Source: a virus. From it: a stretch of 40,779 bases of DNA. A program made the position numbers and the translations under genes. Below the pieces are notes generated by a model. The model saw nothing but the letters and a program-made list of their open reading frames with translations, ran no database searches and was not told the origin of the DNA. Where the stretch lies: IMG/VR virus record IMGVR_UViG_3300042319_003448, positions 1 through 40,779 of that record; one strand, given 5' to 3'. Shown here one piece after another: positions 10,559-35,912 of the stretch (within the stretch, counting starts at the first letter, position 1; each line of letters opens with the position of its first letter).

Positions 10559-10984
10559 ATGGATCAAATAATTACAAATTCTCATCCCGGTGAAAGATTG
10601 GAAGAGATTAGGCTGCATTTTGGATTTACTCAAAAAGAGTTTACTCTTTTATTTGAAGGAAATCAGGGTAACTATTCTAATATTATTTCAGGGAAACGGC
10701 CATTGCCTGAAATATGGATATACAAACTGAAAGAAAAATATGTCAATTTAAATGAAGAGTGGGTTTTCACTGGGGAAGGGACGATGTTTAATGAATCAGG
10801 TAATAAGGGTAAGTATGATTTATTAGAAAGTGTGGACTATTACAAGGTGGGAGAACCTGAACTTTTATCTGAAGCAATGAAAAAATTAAGCCTTCCCGAA
10901 CTTCAAAGGATGGTGCTGCGGCTGGTGTATCGGGTTGAGGAGTTGGAGCGGAGGGTTAGGCAACTAGAAGGTGTCACTAAATAA
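10559..10984 (+). CDS. XRE-family phage repressor
   Basis: A 141-residue protein with an N-terminal helix-turn-helix (residues about 10-65; GERLEEIRLHFGFTQKEF, then GNYSNIISGKRPLP). The phrase NEEWVFTGEGTMF is typical of Bacteroidota XRE repressors. The C-terminus is a charged helix rich in Glu, Arg and Leu (about residues 110-138), probably a coiled coil for oligomerisation. No S24/LexA peptidase domain is present, so induction must work by some other route than RecA-aided self-cleavage. It is divergent from the Cro-like gene and followed after nine bases by a secreted-protein gene. It likely maintains lysogeny. Confidence 0.82.
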   Translation: MDQIITNSHPGERLEEIRLHFGFTQKEFTLLFEGNQGNYSNIISGKRPLPEIWIYKLKEKYVNLNEEWVFTGEGTMFNESGNKGKYDLLESVDYYKVGEPELLSEAMKKLSLPELQRMVLRLVYRVEELERRVRQLEGVTK

Positions 10985-10993
10985 CTTAACAAT

Positions 10994-11344
10994 ATGAGAA
11001 AGTTTTTTTTATTAATACTTGTGCTGAGCACACTAGGAGTAAATGGTCAAATCGTAGATGGAGTTGACATCTGGAAGGATTCCACTGTGCAGTATATCCA
11101 AATTGTTGGGTCATCTGGACTGCTGAACCGGAAGGTTGTGATCTCGGTGGATTATGGCCAGAAGGTAGACTGGGGTACTGATTCCCGTATGGAGGATGAG
11201 AACGGGAAGATTATTAAATTGAATAGCCTTATTCATGCTTTGAACTATTTCTATGCGAAAGGGTGGGATTTTGTTACGGCTTATACCGTTACAGTGGGCA
11301 ATTCTAATGTGTACCACTACACGCTGAGGAGGGCGGGGAAGTAG
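10994..11344 (+). CDS. Secreted protein co-transcribed with the repressor
   Basis: A 116-residue protein with a clear Sec signal peptide (MRKFFLLILVLSTLGVNG, cleavage before Gln19 likely). The rest matches a pattern I recall from small Bacteroidota exported proteins: KVVISVDYGQ, then ALNYFYAKGWDFVTAYTVTVGN-NVYHYTLRR at the C-terminus. The function of that family is unknown to me. Because it sits nine bases behind the repressor on the plus strand, it is probably made in the lysogen and placed in the periplasm, making it a candidate for superinfection exclusion or lysogenic conversion. That role is inference from position only. Confidence 0.7.
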   Translation: MRKFFLLILVLSTLGVNGQIVDGVDIWKDSTVQYIQIVGSSGLLNRKVVISVDYGQKVDWGTDSRMEDENGKIIKLNSLIHALNYFYAKGWDFVTAYTVTVGNSNVYHYTLRRAGK

Positions 11345-11356
11345 GGTCTTTGCTTT

Positions 11357-11539
11357 TTTTGACACTGTTTTGACACTACTGTTTTTGACGGTGGTGTAAG
11401 TTGTTGATTGTTAGGGGGTTGTTGTGTGGGGTTCTGGTATCGCCAGCTCCACGGGACGAAAATGAACCTCACTTAACTAATTGAAAATCAATCAACAGCA
11501 GGAATATTTTTGACACTATTTTGACACTAAATTGTCACT
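11357..11539 (+). other. Candidate attP with ssrA-type core and arm sites
   Basis: The gap before the integrase holds CGCCAGCTCCAC (11441-11452), which equals the conserved 3' end of tmRNA genes (ssrA). It is preceded by GGTTC (11430-11434) at exactly the six-base spacing found in the T-arm of ssrA. On each side are 11-base-spaced direct repeats TTTTGACACT: 11357-11366 and 11368-11377 on the left, 11508-11517 and 11519-11528 on the right, with partial copies at 11383 and 11532. An inverted pair TGTTGATTG/CAATCAACA (11402-11410, 11489-11497) flanks the core. Core plus symmetric arm repeats next to int is the layout of tyrosine-integrase attP sites; integration into host ssrA is inferred. Confidence 0.75.
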
Positions 11540-12715
11540 ATGCAAAAATTGAACTATCGGTTTACGCTTCGCCGTGACCAACCTGCTAAAGACGGATCGT
11601 GCAAACTTGTATTAGTTTGCACGATCAACGGTGACCGGCTAAGGATGTCGGTCGGTATGAGTGTGCACCCCAACAATTTTGACGAAGTAAAAATGCAGAT
11701 GCGGAGCAAGGGCGACCTCGACCACGCAAAACAGGTGAATACCTATCTGCTAAAAATACGCAGGAAAGTAGATGAGATTTTTTTCGACCACCTGAATACC
11801 GATACCATTTTGACGGTAAAGAAATTTGAGGAGGCGTTTAGTCGTAAAGCTGCCAGCGGTGATTTCCTTACATTTATGCAAAACGAAATGGACGCGGCGA
11901 AGGATAGCCAAGCACCCGGCACTATAAAGGCGTGGAATAGCACTTATAACCACTTGCGTACCTGTTTTACAAAAATTCCCTATGCTGATATTTGCCTCGA
12001 TCTTGTAAAAAAGTTTGATTCTTACTTGAAAAAAAAGAAGTTCGAGAGTGCCTACATTGCAAAAAACCATTCGTTCCTGCGTAAATATATCTTACTTGCA
12101 AACAAAAAAGGCAAAAAAGTACCGAACCCTTACACAGAATTTAAGGTGGTGATCCAGCAAAAAGAGCGTGAGTTCCTTAATGCTAAGGAGGTGCAAGGCT
12201 TGCGGGAGTTGTACAATAAAAAGGAATTGCCCGCACACTTGCAAAGGGCTTTACGGCACTTCCTATTCCAGATCGGGACTTCGCTGAGGTATAGCGATTT
12301 GGCGGCTATGACTAAGGAAAATGTAATTAATAACATGCTTGTGTTTTGCCCGATTAAAACCCAAAAACATGGGAAACTGGTAAAATGCCCCTTATCGGAT
12401 ATGGCAAAAAGCATGCTGGATGATTCCGAAAGTGTAACGGATAAACTGTTTTCTGTCTATGCAGAGCAAACAATGAACCGATGGTTAAAGGATATTGCCG
12501 CTTTTGCGGGGATTTCTAAGAAACTTACTACACACTTGGGGCGGCATAGTTACGGGTATCTGTTTATTGCGGCGGGTGGACAGGTGGAAGTGTTGCAAAA
12601 GATCATGGGTCACTCGGATATTAAAACGACGATGATCTATACACACATAGATACCAGGCAGATTACGGAGGGGGTGGATAGGATTAATAGTTTCCTTTCG
12701 GTGGTGGCTGAATGA
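11540..12715 (+). CDS. int: Tyrosine integrase
   Basis: A 391-residue tyrosine recombinase of the Bacteroidota phage type: an N-terminal arm-binding-like domain (residues 1-100), a SAM-like core-binding domain (about 105-205) and a C-terminal catalytic domain. Catalytic residues are visible: R250 (GTSLRYSDL), a Lys around 274-277, H332-x-x-R335 (THLGRHSYG), H358 (MGHSDIKTT) and the nucleophile Y367 (MIYTHI). It would recombine the attP immediately upstream with a host site, probably ssrA. A perfect 13 bp hairpin lies inside codons about 19-29. The gene ends at a strong terminator facing the accessory island. Confidence 0.95.
   Translation: MQKLNYRFTLRRDQPAKDGSCKLVLVCTINGDRLRMSVGMSVHPNNFDEVKMQMRSKGDLDHAKQVNTYLLKIRRKVDEIFFDHLNTDTILTVKKFEEAFSRKAASGDFLTFMQNEMDAAKDSQAPGTIKAWNSTYNHLRTCFTKIPYADICLDLVKKFDSYLKKKKFESAYIAKNHSFLRKYILLANKKGKKVPNPYTEFKVVIQQKEREFLNAKEVQGLRELYNKKELPAHLQRALRHFLFQIGTSLRYSDLAAMTKENVINNMLVFCPIKTQKHGKLVKCPLSDMAKSMLDDSESVTDKLFSVYAEQTMNRWLKDIAAFAGISKKLTTHLGRHSYGYLFIAAGGQVEVLQKIMGHSDIKTTMIYTHIDTRQITEGVDRINSFLSVVAE
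11595..11626 (+). repeat. Perfect 13 bp inverted repeat inside int
   Basis: GATCGTGCAAACT (11595-11607) and AGTTTGCACGATC (11614-11626) are exact inverse copies with a six-base loop, 55 bases into the integrase gene. The encoded residues (SCKLVLVCTI) fit the normal N-terminal strand of such integrases, so the repeat is not an insertion that breaks the protein. It may regulate int translation or mRNA stability, or have arisen by template switching. Confidence 0.85.
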
Positions 12716-12716
12716 A

Positions 12717-12757
12717 AACGCCCCGGACGGTTGCTGATCGTCCGGGGCGTTTTTTTA
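12717..12757. terminator. Bidirectional terminator between int and accessory island
   Basis: AACGCCCCGGACG (12717-12729) and CGTCCGGGGCGTT (12739-12751) form a perfect 13 bp GC-rich stem with a nine-base loop, followed by T on the plus strand (12750-12757) and a shorter T run (plus-strand AAAA, 12715-12718) on the minus strand. It lies between the stop codons of two convergent genes and should end int transcription from the left and, less strongly, the island operon from the right. Confidence 0.9.
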
Positions 12758-13177
12758 TTCGGGTATTTTTGATTCCCAAAAAGTTATGTGGGCGCGGAGT
12801 TCGTCCCACTGCTTGGATAGTAAGGAGTGCAAAGATTTTTCTTCCTCCGTCCAAGCCTCGTCTGCTTCCATACCGTTTGCATCGCGGCGATGCTCGAGCA
12901 TTTGTGTAGCGAAGGAATTGGCGTTGTAAACGACCCGGCACATGTCTGTGCCGGGTGTTTCCCATTGCTGCCATTTTTTGCCGTCCCATTTGCCTAAATA
13001 GGGTAGCATGATTTCCATGCCTTTGTGACAAATAAATGATTTTTTTTGTTTTTTTAGCATTTGGTTTGTCTCGCTGTCAACTCTGAATTTAACAATAGAT
13101 TCTTTGTTTGTTTCAGGGGCTGGATTAGATTGGCGACCTGCGTTTTCACGCTGGCCACCGTGTGTGTTTTTCTTCAT
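12755..13177 (-). CDS. Accessory protein with GGxRxxAGR motif
   Basis: A 140-residue protein. The start at 13177 (MKKNTHGGQRENAGRQ) is chosen because GGxRxxAGR near the N-terminus is a common opening of small phage and plasmid DNA-binding-like proteins, and the longer frame would overlap the upstream gene. After a Pro/Asn linker comes ESIVKFRVDSETNQML (residues about 26-41), which resembles a ribbon-helix-helix strand and helix. The rest, with several Trp residues and a charged end, is not recognised. It is the last gene of the terminator-bounded island. Confidence 0.6.
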   Translation of the reverse strand: MKKNTHGGQRENAGRQSNPAPETNKESIVKFRVDSETNQMLKKQKKSFICHKGMEIMLPYLGKWDGKKWQQWETPGTDMCRVVYNANSFATQMLEHRRDANGMEADEAWTEEEKSLHSLLSKQWDELRAHITFWESKIPE

Positions 13178-13182
13178 AAAAA

Positions 13183-13440
13183 TTAAGGATTTGGGAAAAT
13201 ATATGTACCGCAGTTGCCACAAGGATACTGATCTTCAAATTCTTCCTGATCGGAAAGGTATTTTTGATCTCCTCTATTAGGGTTCAAATAACCACAATTT
13301 TCACAAGGGAAAAAGAAATCGTGATCTACTCCGTTTGAATTTAATACTTTTATTATTGTCTGCATTGTTTGCATATCTGCTTCTAAGGGCAGGTCATTGG
13401 CTTTTGCAAATTGTTTATATATTTCTTGTATGTTGCTCAT
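13183..13440 (-). CDS. Small zinc-ribbon-like accessory protein
   Basis: An 85-residue protein with a helical N-terminal half and two PCxNCG motifs (PCENCGYLNP around 45-54 and PCGNCGTYIF near 73-82), two C-x2-C pairs that would bind one zinc ion. Zinc ribbons of this form bind nucleic acids or proteins. It ends five bases before the next gene of the same operon. No family was recognised; it may be a regulator or an inhibitor. Confidence 0.6.
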   Translation of the reverse strand: MSNIQEIYKQFAKANDLPLEADMQTMQTIIKVLNSNGVDHDFFFPCENCGYLNPNRGDQKYLSDQEEFEDQYPCGNCGTYIFPNP

Positions 13441-13492
13441 ATCTGATTTAAGGTTTCAGTAAGTAAATCGATTTTTTGTGATAACTTTTGTT

Positions 13493-13810
13493 CTAAACTA
13501 GGTACTGTTTGGCCCATTCAATAACCTGTTGAGAATTGGCAAATGTCTGATGGTTATTAAAGTCTCCGTAGATGTATTGGCTTGTGCCTAGTTTTGATGT
13601 GCCAGATGGAATAATAAATTTACGTCCATCAACTATGCAATAAGCCGCCCAATACGTAAACTGACTGCCACCGAAATCATGGATTCTAAGTTCTTTCCAA
13701 AATTCACTAGGAACTTCTGATTTCACTTGTTCAACATACTCGTCAATACGATCGAGTAATCCCTGTACGCAGTTCGTGTAATTTGCAATTTTTCCAATTA
13801 AATTAGTCAT
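13493..13810 (-). CDS. Accessory hypothetical protein
   Basis: A 105-residue soluble protein, not recognised. It begins with a helix (NLIGKIANYTNCVQGLLDRIDEYVEQV), continues with strands rich in aromatic residues (FGGSQFTYWAAYCIVDGRKFIIPSG) and ends with a helix (ANSQQVIEWAKQYLV). The alpha/beta pattern resembles small immunity or inhibitor proteins but there is no firm match. A 12-base palindrome lies 19 bases before its start. Confidence 0.55.
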   Translation of the reverse strand: MTNLIGKIANYTNCVQGLLDRIDEYVEQVKSEVPSEFWKELRIHDFGGSQFTYWAAYCIVDGRKFIIPSGTSKLGTSQYIYGDFNNHQTFANSQQVIEWAKQYLV

Positions 13811-13828
13811 TTCTTTATCTGTTTATTT

Positions 13829-13840
13829 GGCAACATTGCC
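13829..13840 (-). promoter_or_regulatory. Palindrome GGCAACATTGCC before the 13493-13810 gene
   Basis: The site lies 19 bases upstream of the ATG at 13810. An almost equal palindrome, AGCAACATTGCT, lies 21 bases upstream of the next gene of the island (14100-14111). The gap 13811-13896 also has a C-rich/G-rich pair around 13845-13867. A shared operator or a translational control hairpin would explain the repeated position. Confidence 0.45.
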
Positions 13841-13896
13841 AATTCCCTCCCACTTGTTAGGCGGGGGACTTTCGTCCATGGTTCGATTAAAATTTA

Positions 13897-14079
13897 TTAT
13901 TTACAGTGGTGCATATAAAGAGAAGTTAATGCGCCGCCTTTATCTTCTATCTCAATTTTGTTTTCAGTTGAAACAGAATTGTTGCCCAATAAATATGCGT
14001 ATGTAATACTAATGAATCTATTTGCTAATTTATGGGATTTGTAAATCACTACTGTTTTTGAAAAATCTTGCTTAGTCAT
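13897..14079 (-). CDS. Small accessory hypothetical protein
   Basis: A 60-residue protein, not recognised, first gene of the island operon. It is basic at the N-terminus (MTKQDFSKTVVIYKSHKLANRF), followed by a partly hydrophobic stretch (ISITYAYLLG) that is too short for a firm membrane call and an acidic segment (NKIEIEDKGG). It follows a promoter/operator candidate at 14129-14170. Confidence 0.5.
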   Translation of the reverse strand: MTKQDFSKTVVIYKSHKLANRFISITYAYLLGNNSVSTENKIEIEDKGGALTSLYMHHCK

Positions 14080-14099
14080 AATTTTGATCTTTTCGCGTC

Positions 14100-14111
14100 A
14101 GCAACATTGCT
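14100..14111 (-). promoter_or_regulatory. Palindrome AGCAACATTGCT before the 13897-14079 gene
   Basis: Second copy of the GCAACATTGC palindrome, 21 bases upstream of the ATG at 14079, the same position as the copy before the 105-residue gene at 13829-13840. The repeat in two leaders of one operon suggests a common regulator or RNA element. Confidence 0.45.
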
Positions 14112-14128
14112 ACCGCTTTATTGTGATA

Positions 14129-14170
14129 CGAAGGTACGTCAACTTGATTAATGTGTACACAAAAATCAAG
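14129..14170 (-). promoter_or_regulatory. Promoter and operator candidate for the accessory island
   Basis: On the minus strand a TTTG (plus 14160-14163) is followed after 23 bases by TACCTTCG (plus 14129-14136), seven of eight matches to TAnnTTTG. Over and beside it lies a dyad: CTTGATT (14143-14149) and AATCAAG (14164-14170) around the perfect palindrome TGTGTACACA (14152-14161). The overlap of dyad and -33 element suggests repression by a dimeric regulator. The rest of the gap 14112-14246 is AT-rich with nothing else recognised. Confidence 0.45.
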
Positions 14171-14246
14171 ATTATTTTTACAAAAAAGTGTTAAATATTT
14201 TTCATTTTTTATTGAAAGATTATAAGTAGTTGATTGTCAATGAAAT

Positions 14247-14282
14247 AAAAAAGGCGACAACCGGGTGGTTGTCGCCTTTTTT
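14247..14282. terminator. Bidirectional terminator at the end of the late region
   Basis: GGCGACAACC (14253-14262) and GGTTGTCGCC (14267-14276) form a perfect 10 bp stem with loop GGGT, flanked by A6 on the left and T6 on the right, so either strand has a U tract. It lies about 20 bases past the stop of the connector gene and should end late leftward transcription before the accessory island. Confidence 0.9.
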
Positions 14283-14302
14283 ATTATGGATTTTACTTTA
14301 TT

Positions 14303-15352
14303 TTACCCTAAAAACACCGCACCATCATCAACACAAACAATTTTATCCGCATCCTCTAATCCTGCCTTATTACAGGGACTATCGCGCCATAACGGATAAG
14401 TATCTTTGTTTGAGTACAAGAAACTTATTAAGTCGGCGGTGGCTGTGCGTGCGGAGTTCTCTGCTTGCTCTTTTATGCCCATGATTGCGCCCTTTATAGT
14501 ATCGGTTGAAAAGGTTCTGGAGTCTATTCCGTCGTAAGATGTTATTACCCGGAAACCATCTTGTTCGGGTAGCACTGCCAGCGCATCAGCACTGTAACAA
14601 ACCGTCCATTTCGCAACTGATTTTTGTACAAAAACTAACAGTTTTTTGTTCGCGTCAGAAAGGTTATTCGCTCGTATTTGTGTTTTTAGTTGCTCATATA
14701 AGTCCGCGCAAAGGATTGGCAGTATCTTTTCTGCGCTAGATTCCCGCATAATGGGCAACATTGAAATGTATGTGCGGCGACTGTTGTTGATCGGGTGGAA
14801 GTACTGGAACTCTTTGGTGTTTCTAAAGAACTCGCTACTCCCAGCCTCAAATGATTCTGAATTTTTCCAAAGGTTAAAATATGCAATATTCGCCGACACA
14901 TAACGCTCTAAAAGCATTAGGCAGTTGTCCAATATCTTATCTGCATCCTGAATAACGCTCCATAAAGTGGCCTTAAATCCCCAAAGGCTGCTCTGTGTTG
15001 TGCCATTGTCGGCACTATTTTCGACAACTCCCATACTTGCCAGTACTGTTTTCTTCTTAGGGAGTGCCATCATTATTGTATAATAGGCGATACTATCTTT
15101 AAGCAATGTCGCAAACCGAGATTGTTCCGCTGTCAAGATAGCATTTGCCTGTATTTTGGAGGCAATATCATCGTATAGTTCTTCACCGATAAATGGCAGC
15201 ACATACAATTCCGTTGCTTGACGCACAAAAGGGCTGATTTCCTTCCACATCATGTTCATATTTACACCCGGATAATGCAAAGCGAAATCGGTATCTGATA
15301 TTTTTTCTTTCCCTGGAGGGCTGGTTGGTGTTACTTTGAATACTAAATTCAT
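14303..15352 (-). CDS. Duplicated-domain head-tail connector candidate (DUF6712-like)
   Basis: A 349-residue protein built of two related halves: residues about 37-100 (ISPFVRQATELYVLPFIG, ELYDDIASKI) and about 195-265 (MLPIMRESSAEKILPIL, DLYEQLKTQI) share the same spacing of helices. This matches my recollection of a Bacteroidota phage structural family (DUF6712) found near terminase and portal genes and thought to serve as head-completion or connector protein. It is the last late gene before a terminator. Placement beside the terminase supports a head role; the exact function is inferred. Confidence 0.6.
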   Translation of the reverse strand: MNLVFKVTPTSPPGKEKISDTDFALHYPGVNMNMMWKEISPFVRQATELYVLPFIGEELYDDIASKIQANAILTAEQSRFATLLKDSIAYYTIMMALPKKKTVLASMGVVENSADNGTTQSSLWGFKATLWSVIQDADKILDNCLMLLERYVSANIAYFNLWKNSESFEAGSSEFFRNTKEFQYFHPINNSRRTYISMLPIMRESSAEKILPILCADLYEQLKTQIRANNLSDANKKLLVFVQKSVAKWTVCYSADALAVLPEQDGFRVITSYDGIDSRTFSTDTIKGAIMGIKEQAENSARTATADLISFLYSNKDTYPLWRDSPCNKAGLEDADKIVCVDDGAVFLG

Positions 15353-20538: not shown

Positions 20539-23403
20539 TTAAAAATTGGCCTCATTGGTAATGGTATTCACCACCTTGCCAGTGGCCTGTATATCGCTGT
20601 ACACCAATTGCACTTTGAAATATCGCTGCCAGTTGGCCACATCGGCGCGCAACCCTGCTATTTCGGCCATCAGTCCATCCAACTGCGCGGTGTTGCCGCT
20701 GGCCGTACTACTTGTGTCCTGGACAGAAAACGAGGGCGTAGTAGATACCGTGGCCAAGCCTCCGCGTGCGAAATATGGATCACCGTGGCCATTCATGCTA
20801 TTGATCCGGCTAAGCATCCTCAGCATAGGCGCGTTCCTTCTATTCACCACCGCAAATGCCTCGTCACGTTCTACCTCAAATCGGCTGCCATCGCTGCCCA
20901 CCAGTTGCGTGCCGCCTGCGCTGTGGTAATTGCCGCCAAAGAAACCGATCTGCGCTCCACGACCAAATTGGAGCAACTTGCCGCGCTCGAACTTGGTACT
21001 TTCTATTTTACCGATCGCTATGCCCGCGCGCGCGGTGGCCAAGCCTGCTTGTATGGTCGCCAACACATTACCCGCAATAGGCCCTAACAATTGGGCGACG
21101 GGTGATTTCTGTGCGTTCGCAAAAATGCTCGATACTTCCGAAAACAAATTGATCGTAACATTCGCTTTTTGTAACGCCTTTATCGTCTCCGCGTGCTTCT
21201 TTTTAGAGGCTTCATCTTTGCCCAATATTTCGGCTGCAGCCGCGAATATATCACCAGTCGTTTGTAGTCCTTGTTGTAGCACCTCAGTCCTTAGTGCTTC
21301 GAGCCGCTTTTCGTTTTCTATACGGCCTTGGCTAATTTCGGCCTCGATTTTCGCTTTCTGCTCTTCCCTGCTCTTTATTTCATCCACCTGCGGATTGGTG
21401 GCTTCTTTCAGTATCGCTATTTCCTGTGCCAGGTAATTGCGTTTCATCTGAAGCCGTTGCTCCTCGTATTGCTGCTCCACCTCTACAGTCTTCAGCAATT
21501 TATCTTTTACAATTTTGAGTTGTCCTTCTTGCGCCGCCTCATCCACGCCCAACACCGCCAATTTGGTGGCTGTGCCTGCCTGCTCGCTCTGTACGCCGCC
21601 TAATGGCCGGCCACCTAATTGCGCAAGCGGAGCAACACCGGGCCGCGCATTGTCGGCATTTAGTTTGGCTAGTTCATTTTGCAGTTTGAGTGCCTCTACG
21701 GTTTGGTCTTTGGCGTATTTCTTATACAACTGGAGGCTTTCCTCCAGTTGTGTTTTCTTTATGGCCACCAACTCATTGCCGTACTGGATCTCGTTCTTGG
21801 TATTGGCCAATCTCTCGCCTTCCAGTATCGTTTCCTTACGGAGCGTTGCGGCTTGTAGTGCCTTTAGGTCTAATTCGAGGGCTTCTTTTGCCTCCTTGGC
21901 GACATCTTCTTTCGACTTCTTGGAATTGGCTTTAATGATGGCAAACTGCGCATCGTAGCCACCACCGAACGCGCTGGCCAATTTGCGCCCTTCTCCCTCG
22001 GCTTTGCCCTGGTCTGCTGGTGCTACCTCCGCAGTGGGAGACTTTACGCTTTTCCAGCCATCCACTACGCCATTAGCAAGATTAATACCCACGCCAACGG
22101 GGTTCAGATTACTAAACGCCGTTCCGAATGAATCCGCAGCCTTTGAAAATTCTCCACTAAAAAGGTTCACAAAACCATCTGCCACCGCGCCAATTCCTCT
22201 CACTACGCCGCTGATCGCGCTCGCAACGCCGCCAAAAGCCGCTGAAACAACCGCCCGGAAGGTTTCAGCACGTTGTATAAGGTTGAATAGAGACGTGCCA
22301 AAATTAACGATCCAATCCACCACCGGTATAATCACGCCCAGCACTTTATTGAATACCGGAATCATGCCTTTGCCCATGCCGTCAACGATCTCGCTGATGC
22401 GCGAGCGGAGTTTCGCTTTCTTCTCCTGAAGGTCTTCTGTCTGCTTCGCGAAGGCCGCGTTGGCGTTGGAGGATTGCTTAGTGATCTGCTCTAGCGTAAT
22501 CAAGGCTTCTGCTTGCCGGAGTTCGTTACCCGTCAACTTCTCCAAGCCTTTGCGTTTCAATTCGGCCTGTATCGTCGCATCCTTAATATCGATACCAAGG
22601 CTATTCAGTGCGTCGCGTTCACCCAGTAGCGACTTGTTAAGGATTTCGGTGGCGGTTTTGGTATCTACTTTGCCTTTTGTCCAGCGCGACAATACGCCAG
22701 CCTGGTTCACAAGTTCCACTGAAAGTTCGGCTGCAGTCTGCTTTGTGAAGCCCATTGGCGTGAGCAAGTCGCCCACATCGGTGGCCAATCCTTGGTACTC
22801 TCTGCGGCTTAGCCCGATGGCAGCCGCGTTTTTTTCGGAGAAGTCTTTTACAATATTGGCACTTTCGCCGAATACCGCCGCCATTTTTGTTTGTAATGCC
22901 TCCGCGTCCGTACCTATTTCAAACAATTTCTTTACACCTTCAAAAAGCGTTTGAAGACTTATCAAACCTAATGCAATAGGCCCCAAGGCAGTAAGGAATG
23001 CGCGCGCGCCGCCCGATGCCGCAGCAAAAGCCGCTTGCCCTCCAGCGGCCACGCCTTTATTGCTTTCCCGTATGGTGGCCAATTGGCTGTTGATCCCCTT
23101 CAATTCATCATTCAGTATCTTATACTGAGGTGCAGATTGCGGAATGAGGTTGATCGTTTCGGCCAATTGTTTCGCCCTGGCATTCAATTGTGCCGGTGCA
23201 AGTTGACTGAGATCTATTTTGGCGGCGGCTTGCCCCGAAGCAGCCATTTTGTCCAACACTGCGGTAAGGTCGCCGCCAGCCTTGGCGGTCGCCTTTAGTT
23301 CTTGAGCAAACTCTCTGTTTTTATTAATCAGTTTGGCGTACTCCTTACTTTCGTCGGTAAGGAATGCGATGCTTATCTGTACACTGTCTTTTCTTGCTGC
23401 CAT
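20539..23403 (-). CDS. Tail tape measure protein
   Basis: A 954-residue protein with the usual tape measure make-up: an N-terminal helical part (residues 1-110), a hydrophobic segment (about 125-165, ALGPIALGLISLQTLF), a tail-length-setting middle rich in Ala, Lys and Glu, further hydrophobic patches (around 350-410) and long coiled coils (about 470-720). The N-terminal half includes ITLEQITKQSSNANAAFAKQTEDL, typical of phage minor tail proteins. By the general rule of about 0.15 nm per residue, the tail would be near 140 nm, indicating a siphovirus. It starts by a TAATG overlap with the gene before it. It contains a perfect 11 bp hairpin (21726-21751). Confidence 0.92.
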   Translation of the reverse strand: MAARKDSVQISIAFLTDESKEYAKLINKNREFAQELKATAKAGGDLTAVLDKMAASGQAAAKIDLSQLAPAQLNARAKQLAETINLIPQSAPQYKILNDELKGINSQLATIRESNKGVAAGGQAAFAAASGGARAFLTALGPIALGLISLQTLFEGVKKLFEIGTDAEALQTKMAAVFGESANIVKDFSEKNAAAIGLSRREYQGLATDVGDLLTPMGFTKQTAAELSVELVNQAGVLSRWTKGKVDTKTATEILNKSLLGERDALNSLGIDIKDATIQAELKRKGLEKLTGNELRQAEALITLEQITKQSSNANAAFAKQTEDLQEKKAKLRSRISEIVDGMGKGMIPVFNKVLGVIIPVVDWIVNFGTSLFNLIQRAETFRAVVSAAFGGVASAISGVVRGIGAVADGFVNLFSGEFSKAADSFGTAFSNLNPVGVGINLANGVVDGWKSVKSPTAEVAPADQGKAEGEGRKLASAFGGGYDAQFAIIKANSKKSKEDVAKEAKEALELDLKALQAATLRKETILEGERLANTKNEIQYGNELVAIKKTQLEESLQLYKKYAKDQTVEALKLQNELAKLNADNARPGVAPLAQLGGRPLGGVQSEQAGTATKLAVLGVDEAAQEGQLKIVKDKLLKTVEVEQQYEEQRLQMKRNYLAQEIAILKEATNPQVDEIKSREEQKAKIEAEISQGRIENEKRLEALRTEVLQQGLQTTGDIFAAAAEILGKDEASKKKHAETIKALQKANVTINLFSEVSSIFANAQKSPVAQLLGPIAGNVLATIQAGLATARAGIAIGKIESTKFERGKLLQFGRGAQIGFFGGNYHSAGGTQLVGSDGSRFEVERDEAFAVVNRRNAPMLRMLSRINSMNGHGDPYFARGGLATVSTTPSFSVQDTSSTASGNTAQLDGLMAEIAGLRADVANWQRYFKVQLVYSDIQATGKVVNTITNEANF
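21726..21751 (-). repeat. Perfect 11 bp inverted repeat inside the tape measure gene
   Basis: ACAACTGGAGG (21726-21736) and CCTCCAGTTGT (21741-21751) are exact inverse copies with a four-base loop, within the coiled-coil coding part. The frame is intact. Confidence 0.85.
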
Positions 23404-25209: not shown

Positions 25210-25773
25210 CTAAGTGGGTACGGTTGCGGGTTTGTCCTTTTTGGGAATCAACCCGATTATTAATTTGTACGCACTGTAAACCATGCCCGCGTATGCAAAA
25301 TTGGGGAGGAACTGTTTCGTTATCATCGTGAAAAAGTTTTCCGTAAACGCCCCTTCTCTAAAGACGACCAAACTGGTTAAGGCGAGTAATACGACCACCC
25401 CGGACGTTACCAGTTTCATGCCTTTGCTACTGGCGGATAATTTTCGCAGTGCTGGTATAAATCCACCTAGTGCAGCGATCAGCGCGAGCAATCCTGCTTT
25501 AATCGTCCCGATCAGTCCTTCATCGTAGAAGGTATCCGGTTTGGTATAGTCGATAATAACAGGATCACCGGCTTCGGGCGTGTACACTTTTACCAGTGCC
25601 AGATCTACGGGTGCTTTGGTTTCAGCGGCGTTTTTTTCGGCCAGTGCCTTTGCTTCTGCATCGGTGAGTTTTACGGCTCCAGATCGGGTTTTGGTGTCTT
25701 CAGGTTCAGGTGGTTGTTGGGCATAGGTCACAAAAGGAATGATGGCCAACAAGAAAATAATAATTTTTTTCAT
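25210..25773 (-). CDS. Membrane protein with signal peptide, holin candidate
   Basis: A 187-residue protein starting with a Sec signal peptide (MKKIIIFLLAIIPFVTYAQ), followed by a polar, acidic region (residues 20-78) and three membrane segments (about 88-108, GTIKAGLLALIAALGGFIPAL; 120-138; 150-175). It ends in a short basic tail (IPKKDKPATVPT). The layout could be a holin, but a cleavable signal plus three helices is unusual for one; it could also be an exclusion or conversion protein. It lies among tail genes with no overlap of more than one base. Confidence 0.55.
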   Translation of the reverse strand: MKKIIIFLLAIIPFVTYAQQPPEPEDTKTRSGAVKLTDAEAKALAEKNAAETKAPVDLALVKVYTPEAGDPVIIDYTKPDTFYDEGLIGTIKAGLLALIAALGGFIPALRKLSASSKGMKLVTSGVVVLLALTSLVVFREGAFTENFFTMITKQFLPNFAYAGMVYSAYKLIIGLIPKKDKPATVPT

Positions 25774-29832: not shown

Positions 29833-30162
29833 TTACTTTACCTTCAGATCGCGTACTGGTTCGCGGAGGTTAGCCTCTACCTTCTGGCGGAGGGCTTTTG
29901 CTCCCTTGAATTGTAATTTGAGGTATTTAGGCGTAATGCCTACTACACCCAGCGGTGTTTTATAACCTTTCGCTTGTCGGCCTTCGATAGAGAATGTACC
30001 GATACCCTTCAAAATAACGGGGTTCACCGCAGCACCTACGCGAGTGGCAATGTTGGTGAAAAGATGGTCGATCAATTCCCGAATAAGATCGGGATGTAAA
30101 TGGGTCTGTGCCTCTAGTTCATTCACCAGATCGGTGAGGTCGTAATTATGCTTTACGTCCAT
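29833..30162 (-). CDS. HU-family DNA-binding protein
   Basis: A 109-residue protein matching the HU/IHF fold: helical N-terminus (LTDLVNELEAQTHLHPDLIRELI), a beta ribbon with GIGTFSIEGRQAKGYKTPLG (residues about 51-70), then IPKYLKLQFKGAKALRQKVE-like end. HU proteins bend and wrap DNA; here it could compact DNA for packaging or aid site-specific recombination at attP. Its place between a membrane protein gene and the S49 protease is unusual. Confidence 0.85.
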   Translation of the reverse strand: MDVKHNYDLTDLVNELEAQTHLHPDLIRELIDHLFTNIATRVGAAVNPVILKGIGTFSIEGRQAKGYKTPLGVVGITPKYLKLQFKGAKALRQKVEANLREPVRDLKVK

Positions 30163-30168
30163 TTTGTT

Positions 30169-30762
30169 TTAAAAATTTAAAGTGTGTAAAATGATGGCTG
30201 CTACAATAGATATAGTGGCCAATATGATTCTTGTGGTGAAGTTGAGCCGTGGCACTTTTATCCCTAGTGAGGGTATGCCATAGGTTTTACCTGTTTCGTC
30301 ATCGGTTTTTTCTGCGTTCCATGCCAATCCAGATAGCAGGTTGATCGCTATCTTTTGCAGGATTACGCCCGGATATGCGGCCAACACGCAAGCGGCTAAG
30401 GTTGTAAATCCTGATACCGCACAGAAGCCGCTGTAAAAAGCGCTTTCGAGTGTGGTTTTCAAATGTATATCGTTGATGTACTTGTTTTTTGAGGTAACAA
30501 GTACCAGGATACTGGCAATTGTTGAGAGCGCAACGCAACCTATTTGCGTTGTGTCGATTAATCCGTGTATCGCGCTGCGTACTGGCCAGTTGGGAATGTT
30601 CCAGCCATAGCCCACTATGCAGTAATAACCGGCAGCGAGTGTGCAGCCTATTGTTGCGAAGTTGGCGGCTAGTGCGGCGTTCTGGTTGGCGGAGTAGATG
30701 AAGCCGTTGCGGAGACCGCTGAATAGGTAGCGAGCTATGGAGAGGAGTAGGATGGTTATCAT
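30169..30762 (-). CDS. Multi-pass membrane protein, holin candidate
   Basis: A 197-residue protein. The start at 30762 (MITILLLSIARYLF) is fixed by an ATGA overlap. Hydrophobic segments lie near residues 1-15, 25-50, 72-90, 110-140 and 175-197, so about four to five membrane spans. It could be the holin that opens the inner membrane for the amidase, but no family was recognised. The gene is six bases from HU. Confidence 0.5.
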   Translation of the reverse strand: MITILLLSIARYLFSGLRNGFIYSANQNAALAANFATIGCTLAAGYYCIVGYGWNIPNWPVRSAIHGLIDTTQIGCVALSTIASILVLVTSKNKYINDIHLKTTLESAFYSGFCAVSGFTTLAACVLAAYPGVILQKIAINLLSGLAWNAEKTDDETGKTYGIPSLGIKVPRLNFTTRIILATISIVAAIILHTLNF

Positions 30763-31499
30763 TTTATCAGATCCCAAGTTTTTTTGCGTAAATTGTACTT
30801 GTAAATTTTCCCGTCTTCAAGAATTAATCTGCCATCACCTAATAAAATAGTTTTACGCAAAGCAGGGGGATCTTCCTCTTGAACAGGCGCGGCGGCTATA
30901 CGGCTACTTACATCCGATATGGGTCGCAAATCGTACTGGTTGTTTATACTTTTATACACTTTCCCGGTGCGGCCAGTTCGATATAAGTCGGTTGTGTAGC
31001 CGTTAAAATCGTTAAGGCGGATAACACTTCCTAAGAATGTCATTTGCCTCCAGGTCGCGCTGGTATCGGCGCGGTATTGAAAGTTTGTAGCGGTGCGGCG
31101 GAAACGGATAGGGGTTTGGTTTATCCTCCAGTGGCCTGTTTTGTATAGGTCAGGTTCGTCTTTTGCTATTGTATCTAGGAGGTTGCGGCCTAGGATTGTA
31201 GGGAGAAACCTATAAAACCTTACTTTTTCAGTTACGTTTTTACGAGATTGTAAGGCATATTCAGCAACTCGTGAGAAATCTAATGCATCATTTTCTAGTT
31301 GATTCGTAAAAGATAAAACCGTATTAGTCGTGTCTCCTAGGGGTATTATAGTTGTCGTTTCTGCCCCAGTTGCAAATACGACTTTTCGTGCTTGGAAAAA
31401 TTCACCGGTGCGGTTGAATATCCAAGCACTATCAATTTCCTGTGCAGATGCTGCACAGGAAATTGATAAAAAGGAAATTAAAAAAAGTATATTTTTCAT
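30759..31499 (-). CDS. Exported protein with signal peptide
   Basis: A 246-residue protein with a Sec signal peptide (MKNILFLISFLSISCAASA, cleavage before Gln likely). A Cys in the signal (ISCAASAQ) does not make a proper lipobox. The mature part is beta-like with many Arg and Thr residues (AWIFNRTGEFFQARKVVF) and ends in a basic stretch. It is the last of four consecutive signal-peptide genes. A perfect 17 bp hairpin covers the region around the cleavage site. Not recognised; it may be a lectin-like or surface protein associated with the fibres. Confidence 0.6.
   Translation of the reverse strand: MKNILFLISFLSISCAASAQEIDSAWIFNRTGEFFQARKVVFATGAETTTIIPLGDTTNTVLSFTNQLENDALDFSRVAEYALQSRKNVTEKVRFYRFLPTILGRNLLDTIAKDEPDLYKTGHWRINQTPIRFRRTATNFQYRADTSATWRQMTFLGSVIRLNDFNGYTTDLYRTGRTGKVYKSINNQYDLRPISDVSSRIAAAPVQEEDPPALRKTILLGDGRLILEDGKIYKYNLRKKTWDLIK
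31431..31467 (-). repeat. Perfect 17 bp inverted repeat at a signal-peptide cleavage region
   Basis: ATCAATTTCCTGTGCAG (31431-31447) and CTGCACAGGAAATTGAT (31451-31467) are exact inverse copies with a loop of three bases. It begins 32 bases into the gene and encodes SISCAASAQEID, covering the cleavage site. It is the longest in-gene stem found in the window. Confidence 0.95.
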
Positions 31500-31550
31500 A
31501 TTATTTTATGTTTATGATAGAATGATTTCCGCGTTTAAGGTATAAGATGA

Positions 31551-33683
31551 TTATCTTGTTGTGTTAAAACTTTCGCTGTAACCGATCGCGTCGATGGTTA
31601 CAGTTCGAGCGGTTGTTCCTATTGTTTTGAATAGTGCTGATCCCGCGCCCGTTTGCCGCGCCACTCCCGATGGGATATTAGCGGTATGCGTTGCGACAAG
31701 TACGTTATCTATATAAAATTCAACACTGGTAGCGGCGGTGTTCACTTCTACCCTAAAGTCATAGGGCGTAGCCGCTGCTACTGGTATAGTTGTAGTAGTG
31801 TTTGTCGAAATGCCGTTACTTTCTGTTGTGCAAATAAAGTTGGCGCTATTTTCTTCGTTGTAGGCGATATATGCTCCGTCGACTATGCCTGCTAGGCTGG
31901 TGCCATCCTGTAACCCAAAGGCGTACTGATACCGTTCTGTGGCATTAGACAATACTGGGAAACGTGTATTAAGCGACTTGACTACGACGGGTCCTTGTCC
32001 TAGGCTTATCGTGTTGTTAGTTAAAAATACCGCACGCGCTAAGGCTGTTGTACCTGTGCTGTGCTGTAAGTTGCCGCGTTCTTCGGGTACGGTAGATACA
32101 AGAAGTGTGTTCGATGCGCCTGTCCCCGCTGCTGCTGCGGTAAATACAGGATCGACTATACTTGTCCCCATAAACTCTGCAAATGTGCTGATGGCTACGG
32201 AGTAATCGTTTTCGTATAGTGGCTGCCACTGACTACCGTTCCATGTGTATTTTTGGCCTTTTACTGGTGTTTGAGAGCCGACTATGCGGCCTCTTATGCC
32301 ATCTACGACGATGCTGCTATATGTTCCATCTATGTCCCCGGCAATGCGGATACCGCCTAGGCTTACATCATCTGCGCGGTGCATTTGAATGGTAGAACCG
32401 CTGATGGATAGGCCGTTGTCGTTGGGTGGGGCGATGTTTGCGCCTACGGTGGTTACTCCGCCGCCGCCTGATCCGTTGCTGGCCGCTGTGATGCGGCCAT
32501 CTGCGTCAACTGTTATGTTTGCGGAGGTGTAAGAGCCTGCGGTTACAGCGGTGTTTATTAGTTCGTTGGGGCCGACTGAGTTGTCGGCCATTTTGTCGTT
32601 TGTGATCGCGTTGGGGATGATTGTTGCAAAGTTTAGGTTGCCGGATATTTCGCCGCCGATAGGGATGGCGCTGGAGGATATTGAGAGAACCCCGCCTGAT
32701 AAAGAAAAACCGCTTCCTAATGCAATGTCTCTGCTAATATTATCACTGCCCCATCCCGCAATTGTAGTAGCCGATCCTCCTCTCGTTGTAAGTCGAAAGT
32801 TCCCTGCTACATCTAGCGAACAAACTGGAGATGTAGTATTTATTGCAAATTTTCGACCCTCAAAGCGTGCCACCTCTTCTAATGTAGAAGAGGTAATTGG
32901 CACTTCTATCTTAATTAACCCTTCTACGGTATTGGCTTGTCTTGTAAGAGCGGAAATACGTGCGACCGTATTGCTGCCGCCGCCAACAAATTTGAAACCT
33001 AATACCCCGGGTGTATTATTACTTCCGAACACTGTTGTTTCCGCAGTTACAAATGTGTTCGCATCGTTCGATCGGATATGAAAGTAGTCTGTAGGATTGT
33101 GATTGTTTACTCCAAATCTGCCGGTGTTTGTAACACTAAAAACAGGGTATCCGATAGCGTTTTTAGTAAAAAGATGAAACCCTTGCTTTGCCACAATAGT
33201 TAAATCATCAAATCCTGCATAAGGCAAATTATTATATCCTTCTCCAAACTCATGCCCATTAATACCTATCCGATTCCCGTCAAAAGTTAATGCATCTTGG
33301 TCTAATATAAACCCCGTAGTATTAGCTGTTAAAAGTCGGGTTGTGGGGCCTGTAAGGCTATTAGAAGCAATAACCCCTCCGACATGAAGCGGTGCCAATG
33401 GTGTGGCCACTCCGATTCCTATATCAGAGCCGTTATTAACTAAAAGACTAGATGGAATCCACCCGCCAGAATAGCGCAACGTTTGGTTCGCTGAACCATT
33501 GGGGAGTAGCAAAGTCCCTTGTAATGTACTAGGATTTACCCAAGCACCAACCCCATTTACCACCTGCCCTATATTACCATCCGGGGCAGAATACGCACCA
33601 ATTTGCCCCGGATGCAACTTCGGCTCCACCACCTGCCCAAAGCCCAACCAAGGCAGCAACAAAAATAAAAGTAAAATCCTCAT
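31551..33683 (-). CDS. Tail-fibre-like protein with signal peptide
   Basis: A 710-residue protein that begins with a Sec signal peptide (MRILLLFLLLPWLGFG before Gln). Then come low-complexity beta repeats with phage-fibre character (PGQIGAYSAPDGNIGQVVNG, LLLPNGSANQTLRYSGGW, IGIGVATPLAPLHVGG, FAINTTSPVCSLDVAGN; the latter resemble collar repeats found next to endosialidase-type fibres). The last 210 residues (from about 500) look like a jelly-roll carbohydrate-binding module. No S74 autoprotease was seen at the end. It may bind host glycans. Why a fibre has a signal peptide is unexplained. A 10 bp hairpin lies at 32872-32894. Confidence 0.7.
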   Translation of the reverse strand: MRILLLFLLLPWLGFGQVVEPKLHPGQIGAYSAPDGNIGQVVNGVGAWVNPSTLQGTLLLPNGSANQTLRYSGGWIPSSLLVNNGSDIGIGVATPLAPLHVGGVIASNSLTGPTTRLLTANTTGFILDQDALTFDGNRIGINGHEFGEGYNNLPYAGFDDLTIVAKQGFHLFTKNAIGYPVFSVTNTGRFGVNNHNPTDYFHIRSNDANTFVTAETTVFGSNNTPGVLGFKFVGGGSNTVARISALTRQANTVEGLIKIEVPITSSTLEEVARFEGRKFAINTTSPVCSLDVAGNFRLTTRGGSATTIAGWGSDNISRDIALGSGFSLSGGVLSISSSAIPIGGEISGNLNFATIIPNAITNDKMADNSVGPNELINTAVTAGSYTSANITVDADGRITAASNGSGGGGVTTVGANIAPPNDNGLSISGSTIQMHRADDVSLGGIRIAGDIDGTYSSIVVDGIRGRIVGSQTPVKGQKYTWNGSQWQPLYENDYSVAISTFAEFMGTSIVDPVFTAAAAGTGASNTLLVSTVPEERGNLQHSTGTTALARAVFLTNNTISLGQGPVVVKSLNTRFPVLSNATERYQYAFGLQDGTSLAGIVDGAYIAYNEENSANFICTTESNGISTNTTTTIPVAAATPYDFRVEVNTAATSVEFYIDNVLVATHTANIPSGVARQTGAGSALFKTIGTTARTVTIDAIGYSESFNTTR

Positions 33684-34570
33684 TACTGTAATGGATATTT
33701 AAAAGTTACTACTTCTCCTGTCGCTAAAACCCTAGCAAACGTAAGCGTACCGCCTGATCGAGTAACATTACAACCCGAACAACCGGACGCACCGACAACG
33801 TGCCTTACCCCGTTTCTATACACCCAAAGTTTGCTGTTTTCTGCGGGTAGTGTACCCGCCATTGTGGCCGTGGTTTGACCTGCTGTAAACGTCGCAGTCG
33901 CTTCTACAAATAAATCTTCGACATTCACAGTGCCGCCCGAAAGAGAAAGCGTAACGACGTTATTTGTCGCTACGTTTCTTGATACACTCTGTATTTCGTT
34001 TGTTGGATTACCATCTAACTCTGTACCCGTTACCGTTATCGTAGTGCCGGATGTAGTAGCAACATTAATCCCCGCCCCGGCTACGGTGAACGCGCCGCCG
34101 CCATTGCTGAGTGTTACAGTGTTCGTTGCGGTTGCGATCGTTTGTAGTTCGTTGGTATTACTTAGGTCGCCCGTATTAGAAATAGTCACGCCTGTTATGT
34201 CTATTCCCGTTCCTGCGGTGTATGTCGTTCCTGCATCGGGCTGTAATGACCATGCAGTGCCGTTCCATTTATAGACTTGTCCGGCTGATGTACCATTGGC
34301 GATCATTGCTGGAGTAACGACTCCATTTGCGATTACGGTTGCATTTGCCGCACCCGTTACGTTGCCCGAAAGAGTAATATTCGGCACTAATGCCGCAGCA
34401 AGCGCGGCGCGAGTAATATGTGTGTGAATAGTTGCGCCCGATGCAACGGTCGGAATGTCGCCCACGCCCGCGCCATACGCGCCAATAGTTGCGACGGGAA
34501 TAAGTGGCTCAACGGGTTGTGCCAAAAGTGCCAAAGGCAACATTAAGATAAAAGCAATAATAAATCTCAT
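33683..34570 (-). CDS. Fibre-like protein with signal peptide and CSGC domain
   Basis: A 295-residue protein with a signal peptide (MRFIIAFILMLPLALLA before Gln) followed by Ala/Thr/Gly-rich beta repeats (GTSAGQVYKWNGTAWSLQPD is a common phage-fibre phrase; TATNTVTLSNGGGAFTVAGAG). The C-terminal 60 residues form a small domain with VYRNGVRHVVGASGCSGCNV, alike to the end of the next gene. The two Cys in C-x2-C could form a disulphide after export. It joins the 710-residue gene by TAATG overlap. Confidence 0.65.
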   Translation of the reverse strand: MRFIIAFILMLPLALLAQPVEPLIPVATIGAYGAGVGDIPTVASGATIHTHITRAALAAALVPNITLSGNVTGAANATVIANGVVTPAMIANGTSAGQVYKWNGTAWSLQPDAGTTYTAGTGIDITGVTISNTGDLSNTNELQTIATATNTVTLSNGGGAFTVAGAGINVATTSGTTITVTGTELDGNPTNEIQSVSRNVATNNVVTLSLSGGTVNVEDLFVEATATFTAGQTTATMAGTLPAENSKLWVYRNGVRHVVGASGCSGCNVTRSGGTLTFARVLATGEVVTFKYPLQ

Positions 34571-35115
34571 TGTATAATTTGTAATTGAATTGTTTCCTGT
34601 GCTATGACAGCACGGGAAAGGGTGAATGTTTGTGTGCTTGAATTATATGAAACCTGACAATCGGAGCAGTTTGAAAGTCCAACTTTGTAAAGTTGTCCGT
34701 TCCGGGTTACTCGCATATTGTCGAGCGAAATTCCTGTGAGTGAACCGAATGCGGTAAAATTAGGGCTACCGATGGTTGTTGTAACCGTTCGGTATTGCCA
34801 TGCTCCAGCGTCGGTAGATGGTACCCAGTTTGTTCCATTCCATTTTATTGTTTGCCCTGTAGTTGGAGTGCCTGTAACACCTATATATCCCTGTGCTACG
34901 ATGAAATCATATACAGCCTTTGCAGTAGTGCCTTGCCTATGCGTAGCCGCATTGGTGATTATAGTAGATATTGTTGTCCAATACTTCGACGTATCCAGCC
35001 CCACCCTAAGCCGCTGACGTGCAACTAGAATATCTTTGGTCTCCGTAGTAGGGCCTTGCGCGCTTGCAACAAAAGCGGAGCAGAGAAGGAAAAAGATTAT
35101 TGCTCTAATACGCAT
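34567..35115 (-). CDS. Fibre-like protein with signal peptide and CSDC domain
   Basis: A 182-residue protein with a signal peptide (MRIRAIIFFLLCSAFVASA before Gln), a short helical part, the fibre phrase TTGQTIKWNGTNWVPSTDAG and a C-terminal domain with TRNGQLYKVGLSNCSDCQV that is clearly related to the end of the 295-residue protein. The two genes are joined by ATGA. The pair probably arose by duplication and may form a hetero-oligomer. Confidence 0.65.
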   Translation of the reverse strand: MRIRAIIFFLLCSAFVASAQGPTTETKDILVARQRLRVGLDTSKYWTTISTIITNAATHRQGTTAKAVYDFIVAQGYIGVTGTPTTGQTIKWNGTNWVPSTDAGAWQYRTVTTTIGSPNFTAFGSLTGISLDNMRVTRNGQLYKVGLSNCSDCQVSYNSSTQTFTLSRAVIAQETIQLQIIQ

Positions 35116-35912
35116 ATTTGAATTGTATTTGTCCCAGCCAAGCCGGAAATATAAATGTTGATATTTGAATCCGCGAGTATCCAGTTGTCACCGAACTGGT
35201 ACTTCACACCTGCCACCATATCCACGGGGCCTGCTAACTCGGAATTACCCGCGCTGTAACCGATAGATACGGTTTGATCAGAGGTGCTTTTGATGAAAAT
35301 AGCCATTAGGAACTTGCCAGCGGTGAGGCTGTATATGTAGCCGCTGGATGAGGTGGTTACTTCCACGGGTGCGAAGCCGCCGCCGCCGCCACTGCCACCG
35401 CCGCCCGGATCGGGTGGTATGTATGGCGGGCCTATTACATTTACTACTGCTCCTATCCAGGGCGCGGGATTGATTAGCAAACTTTGTCCGGAAAAGGAAT
35501 AGCCATTTCGGGTGCCACGGTCGCCGGAGTCTTCACCGCCGAAAAGCCGAATGTTGGGAACGCACTTTTGTCCGCCTGCTTCGTAGGTACATATGGCGTG
35601 CACCCTTCGGTTTTTTACCTTGGCTCGGAAGTAATCCATCTCTACCCGAACGCCGCGACTGGTGAGTGCAAGCGCGTACTCGTAGTAGTCGCCCGCAGCA
35701 CTGGCGAGGGGCTTGCCTGTAAGTCTGCCAGAAAAAGCATCTTGGTGTAAAAAGAAGGCTGCCTTACCCGGCAGGAACGAGAGTTCCAGGATAGAGGGAA
35801 TGGCGTACCATTTTGGCTGGGTAACCAAATCGGCGGGATCAATGATTGCGATTTGGCTAAGCCCTGCCGTTAGGTCGCCGCATTTCTTTTGTACTGCATG
35901 CAGATCTAGCAT
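35097..35912 (-). CDS. Tail-tip or fibre-adaptor protein
   Basis: A 271-residue protein without signal peptide: an N-terminal soluble domain (residues 1-160, with Cys in AICTYEAGGQKC), a proline/glycine linker (IPPDPGGGGSGGGGG, around 165-180) and a C-terminal beta domain (about 182-271). Two folded parts joined by a flexible glycine linker fit a tail-tip adaptor that holds a receptor-binding part. It overlaps the start of the first signal-peptide fibre gene by 19 bases. Confidence 0.55.
   Translation of the reverse strand: MLDLHAVQKKCGDLTAGLSQIAIIDPADLVTQPKWYAIPSILELSFLPGKAAFFLHQDAFSGRLTGKPLASAAGDYYEYALALTSRGVRVEMDYFRAKVKNRRVHAICTYEAGGQKCVPNIRLFGGEDSGDRGTRNGYSFSGQSLLINPAPWIGAVVNVIGPPYIPPDPGGGGSGGGGGFAPVEVTTSSSGYIYSLTAGKFLMAIFIKSTSDQTVSIGYSAGNSELAGPVDMVAGVKYQFGDNWILADSNINIYISGLAGTNTIQICVLEQ

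Follow-up and report, generated by a model that had tools for sequence, protein, structure and literature searches.

Four consecutive genes in the tail operon of an uncultured Bacteroidota phage code for proteins with predicted Sec signal peptides, and we read them, with a probability of about 0.45, as a tail-fibre-like module that would be adapted for Sec export, its fibres attaching to virions at lysis. The DNA under study (the window) is the whole IMG/VR record IMGVR_UViG_3300042319_003448 of 40,779 bases, whose ends share a 119-bp direct terminal repeat, indicating that it is circular and probably complete. Its genes include an integrase, a large terminase and a primase, as well as an Amidase_2 endolysin, an S49 peptidase and an HU protein, and it looks like the genome of a temperate tailed phage, the minus strand being that of the late genes. 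The 954-aa product of gene 20539-23403 is probably the tape measure, as inferred from its length and position. A tandem 11-bp repeat, GTTGCGGGAAA, is found at 2605-2648. The preliminary description of this DNA had recognized export signals typical of Bacteroidota, and a host from this phylum is indeed supported; a search of genome contigs with the integrase returned only distant recombinases from Bacillota and one gammaproteobacterium, and none from Bacteroidota.

Table 1. Features of the window discussed in the text (SP, signal peptide; a slash marks the predicted cut).
Feature	Coordinates	Strand	SP	N-terminus	Remarks
SP-bearing small fibre-like protein, 182 aa	34567-35115	-	35059-35115	MRIRAIIFFLLCSAFVASA/QGPTTE	KWNGTNWV; CSDC pair in the C-terminal head
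SP-bearing fibre-like protein, 295 aa	33683-34570	-	34520-34570	MRFIIAFILMLPLALLA/QPVEPL	KWNGTAW; CSGC pair in the C-terminal head
SP-bearing long modular fibre-like protein, 710 aa	31551-33683	-	33636-33683	MRILLLFLLLPWLGFG/QVVEPK	YTWNGSQW
SP-bearing companion protein, 246 aa	30759-31499	-	31443-31499	MKNILFLISFLSISCAASA/QEIDSA	Homologue behind SP-bearing fibre in G004
Predicted multi-pass membrane protein, without SP	30169-30777	-			Travels with cassette; 66% identical in G001
HU-like DNA-binding protein	29833-30162	-			Travels with cassette in G001 (61%)
Upstream gene without SP	35097-35912	-			N-terminal domain, Gly-rich linker, C-terminal domain (our own domain reading)
Q-rule SP protein, holin-like	25210-25773	-	25720-25773		C-terminal half hydrophobic; G001 homologue adjoins endolysin
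Q-rule SP protein, 116 aa	10994-11344	+	10994-11047		Adjoins integrase; absent from G001

The open reading frames starting at 31499, 33683, 34570 and 35115 are confirmed on the minus strand, each with a compact Sec signal peptide at its N-terminus, as had been described. Using a rule-based detector, which is our own rule set and not SignalP, a basic n-region, a hydrophobic core and small residues at -1 and -3 are found in the four peptides, and in all four the residue at +1 of the predicted cleavage site is Gln, which corresponds to the Bacteroidetes Q-rule; in Bacteroidota, Gln occupies this position in an average of 71% of the predicted signal peptidase I substrates (PMC5837995). The detector finds such peptides in 6 of the 46 window genes, two of which had been overlooked (25210-25773 and 10994-11344), and in none of the other window ORFs of at least 60 aa. 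The chance rate with shuffled N-termini is 0.0002 per gene (0.02%), and the six positive proteins pass at a rate of at most 0.7% when their own first 30 residues are shuffled. Among 834 ORFs from cultured Bacteroidota phages only one doubtful match resulted, a 63-aa membrane protein; this survey covers the whole set of 11b, 6H, P12024S, B40-8 and RAP44, most of crAss001 and phi12:1, and the tail regions only of phi18:1, phi17:1, phi38:1 and Molly. The crAss001 tailspikes have no signal peptide.

These shuffling and survey statistics weigh against an artefact, be it wrongly placed starts, contamination with host DNA or N-termini that are hydrophobic by chance, an explanation to which the use of a rule set instead of SignalP and the metagenomic nature of the records lend some weight. 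Also against it, the records are circular with terminal repeats, the cassette lies among phage genes in three genomes, and overlaps of 19, 4 and 1 nt with the upstream gene at three of the four starts make it unlikely that the signal peptides result from ORFs wrongly extended upstream. An artefact is thus hardly credible. Judging from the sequences, the four signal peptides are very probably functional and the export genuine, and we would expect with high confidence that the four proteins are exported. Tailed phages are generally assumed to complete their assembly in the cytoplasm, and the earlier remark that export is unexpected for such a phage is supported. In gene 30759 the cleavage codons of the signal peptide lie within a perfect inverted repeat of 17 bp with a loop of 3 nt (31431-31467); this repeat was considered as part of the mechanism and rejected, being absent from both relatives described below.

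The fibre-like character ascribed to this block holds for three of its four genes; the fibre phrases are found in all but 30759-31499 (Table 1). The lectin-like end that had been noticed is found on gene 31551, the C-terminus of which matches an SO2946-like lectin-type domain (PF22237, E 3.7e-18). Together with a weak match of gene 34567 to PHROG 9627 across its WNGT region, this makes up the fibre-domain evidence of the window, in which the Pfam S74 domain was not found. Searching a phage collection gave no matches for 33683, 30759 and 36795, and for 31551 gave matches to the C-terminal domain only, whereas AlphaFold models had a mean pLDDT of 50 for 34567 and 54 for 30759 and were left unused. 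The phrase KWNGTxW alone is no predictor of a signal peptide, since one was found in 1 of 80 phage ORFs of the phrase set; the proposition that every phage protein with this phrase has one is rejected by the other 79. Each of the mature proteins 34567 and 33683 has just two cysteines, which lie in the C-terminal head as a conserved CSxC pair, possibly a disulphide or a metal site. The idea that export serves the oxidative folding of this pair was discarded, as the pair is not general across the signal-peptide-bearing fibres.

All four genes are found in the same order in two further IMG/VR phages, G001 (42.9 kb) and G002 (26.4 kb). G002 is related to the window across most late genes, and the genome of G001 is largely unrelated, its structural proteins being 18-39% identical to those of the window or rearranged. 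In G001 the four genes are 56-96% identical to those of the window, the downstream membrane and HU genes 61-66%, the integrase 99% and the endolysin 93%. That the cassette, the integrase and the endolysin are common to both phages despite their divergent structural proteins is expected of host-interaction genes, and the cassette behaves in this comparison as a putative exchangeable host-interaction block. The integrase (11336-13177) and a 203-bp stretch at 14077-14279, 98.5% identical over its length, are nearly the same in G001, which suggests a common attachment site in the host for the two phages. A sequence of about 40 bp at 1270-1310 matches five places at 28.8-30.1 kb in G001 and is perhaps a repeated regulatory element.

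Within the cassette, the +1 Gln of the signal peptides is retained in both relatives. The signal peptides of gene 34567 are strongly divergent in the three phages (MRIRAIIFFLLCSAFVASA, MKRIILVLALFSHFFVSA and MSFVRTLFFLLFAQVVCA, each followed by Q) but maintain their architecture and the +1 Gln, as expected under selection for export. Protein 33683 is 95-96% identical across the three phages, its gene differing from that of the window by 71-99 synonymous and 13-16 non-synonymous codon changes; this conservation is unlike that of a typical receptor-binding tip and counts against a virion fibre. Gene 31551 is modular and in G002 is devoid of the lectin-like end.

A profile of 33683 reached four more contigs (G003, G004, G005 and G006), each with Q-rule signal peptide genes in or beside the matched gene. 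Two such fibre-like genes close a long co-directional block in G003 (131 kb, with an end overlap), and G004 (57 kb, with a terminal repeat of 123 bp) has a fibre-like gene of 1251 aa with a signal peptide, behind which lie a homologue of 30759 of 207 aa (98.7 hhalign probability) and then the tape measure. Another four Q-rule signal peptide genes in a row, one of 889 aa, are found in G004 (L169) at 10704-15045, with no family match. G005 (46 kb, 127-bp terminal repeat) has three consecutive signal peptide genes ahead of the endolysin, and in G006/L098 the fibre with a signal peptide comes directly behind tape-measure and tail genes; the tail-operon position of the fibre is clearer in G005 and G006 than in the window. 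The complete G005 fibre has 1092 aa, begins with MKKILLLILSISLFASANS followed by Q and has a Peptidase_S74 chaperone at its C-terminus, the G005/L097 protein matching PF13884 and tail-fibre PHROGs. With a Q-rule signal peptide and an S74 end in one protein, a fibre of a known type is also a predicted Sec substrate. Residues 35-190 of the L098 fibre share 96% identity with the G005 fibre, but its signal peptide is a different one that also follows the Q-rule.

The next G005 gene, coding for a partner of the fibre, starts with MKSRLLIILLIVGLNVFA followed by QVPNTTTFTL. Its homologues in the cultured phages phi18:1, phi17:1 and phi38:1 of Cellulophaga and Molly of Maribacter begin with M[AS]VPNT[NT]TF and have no signal peptide, their start coinciding exactly with the mature N-terminus predicted for the G005 partner; in phi38:1 and Molly the partner gene lies behind a fibre that also lacks a signal peptide. 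The existence of fibre and partner pairs with and without signal peptides indicates that a phage fibre module can acquire or lose them, the fibre and its partner agreeing in whether they carry one. Hydrophobic segments for DNA entry do occur in some tail proteins, and the N-terminal segment might serve a tail protein assembled in the cytoplasm as a hydrophobic anchor or as an injection peptide rather than as an export signal. However, homologues beginning exactly at the predicted cut, together with a basic n-region, a short h-region, small residues at -1 and -3 and Gln at +1 in every member while the peptide sequence diverges freely, render this quite improbable.

According to the explanation we favour, each protein would be expressed from the tail operon, late in infection as gene order suggests, and would carry a signal peptide of the Bacteroidota type. 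It would then cross the inner membrane through Sec and be cut by signal peptidase I before the Gln, which would probably become pyroglutamate, as the Q-rule implies. The mature fibres would fold and assemble in the periplasm, virions being finished in the cytoplasm, and we propose that the two pools join at lysis, when the fibres would bind to tail tips as adhesive appendages. As the proteins have no recognized outer-membrane route, they should remain periplasmic until lysis. In extracts, finished particles can still receive T4 long tail fibres or P22 tailspikes, which makes attachment at this stage feasible. Attachment to virions is favoured because the S74 fibre at the usual locus in G005 is the exported protein, and we would give it not quite an even chance.

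An alternative is that the proteins are exported but never become virion parts, being soluble periplasmic lectin-like binders freed at lysis, which might cover receptors on debris, hinder competing phages or alter neighbouring cells. The genuine Q-rule signal peptides fit this possibility, as does, in a suggestive way only, the lectin-type end of 31551, and PblB of the S. mitis prophage SM1, once released, attaches to other live cells (PMC4508584). The window also has genes without signal peptides (35097, 36795 and 38514) that could be its adsorption genes, the product of 35097, which has no family match, being a candidate virion adsorption protein; this counts against the fibre explanation. 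So do the facts that the cultured Bacteroidota phages in the comparison manage without export, and that the phi18:1 homologue gp62, devoid of a signal peptide, does not bear the mark of detection by mass spectrometry which its neighbours gp59-gp61 have. Contrary to what free binders would suggest, the exported G005 protein is an S74-type tail fibre at a normal fibre locus, and its homologues at the fibre locus of cultured phages have no signal peptide. The comparison thus leans to loading on virions outside the inner membrane over a secreted binder released at lysis, since the G005 S74 fibre has a signal peptide and the partner homologues without one start at the mature N-terminus; free binders would be a tentative second possibility, for which we see an appreciable minority chance.

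A distinct scenario is lysogenic conversion, in which the lysogen would display or secrete the proteins as adhesins or superinfection-exclusion factors. The phage is temperate and has an integrase, and Q-rule proteins of P. gingivalis phages have been suggested to modify the outer membrane (PMC10367356). However, the display on the lysogen surface envisaged in the preliminary description did not find support: a lipobox is absent, +1 being Gln in all four proteins, there was no Pfam or NCBIfam match to a T9SS C-terminal sorting domain in any of them, and no other outer-membrane route was found. The Cys in the 30759 signal peptide lies outside any lipobox and is missing in the relatives. Moreover, the four genes overlap one another within the tail operon, which makes late expression more likely, and a lysogen-expressed role better fits gene 10994-11344, a candidate for a secreted protein of the lysogen, for example in superinfection exclusion. 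Lysogenic conversion by the four proteins is thus unlikely.

Returning to the favoured explanation, we would tentatively extend it, at somewhat less than even odds, to a group of Bacteroidota tailed phages in which fibres and partners may leave the cytoplasm through Sec, fold in the periplasm and join the virions no earlier than lysis, with gain or loss of signal peptides switching modules between the cytoplasmic and the exported state. If true, some tailed phages export fibres rather than completing them in the cytoplasm. With a recurrent module and marine counterparts devoid of signal peptides, it is now directly testable whether these proteins are host-range determinants exported and then loaded or free adhesins. 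Either outcome alters the annotation and prediction of Bacteroidota phage fibres, which would be overlooked by pipelines that discard genes with signal peptides as host genes. In a search of open-access PMC papers, we found neither a multi-gene fibre module with signal peptides nor their gain or loss on phage fibres described.

In respect to known systems, phage T5 Llp is an exported receptor-blocking lipoprotein acting on the host envelope to the benefit of the phage; the window proteins are likewise phage proteins that are very probably exported, but Llp is a small lipoprotein, not fibre-like, and lies outside the tail operon. The S74 fibres of Cellulophaga phi38:1 and Maribacter Molly have a C-terminal part homologous to that of G005 and the same downstream VPNTTTF partner gene, but neither fibre nor partner has a signal peptide, and the window fibres lack the S74 domain. 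Phage-encoded Q-rule proteins are already known: the 'Nixviridae' phages of Porphyromonas gingivalis, like the window, are temperate Bacteroidota phages encoding such proteins, in five genes of unknown function that are not described as fibres, as a block or as having counterparts devoid of signal peptides (PMC10367356). Also known is a prophage tail adhesin with a predicted signal peptide, the pneumococcal PblB, whereas PblB of S. mitis has none by SMART and is released via phage-induced permeabilization (PMC4508584). PblA and PblB resemble the window proteins, for which an adhesin role is putative, in being prophage tail proteins that act as adhesins outside the virion, and differ from them in being encoded by single genes in Gram-positive hosts, whereas the window has a multi-gene block with Q-rule signal peptides.
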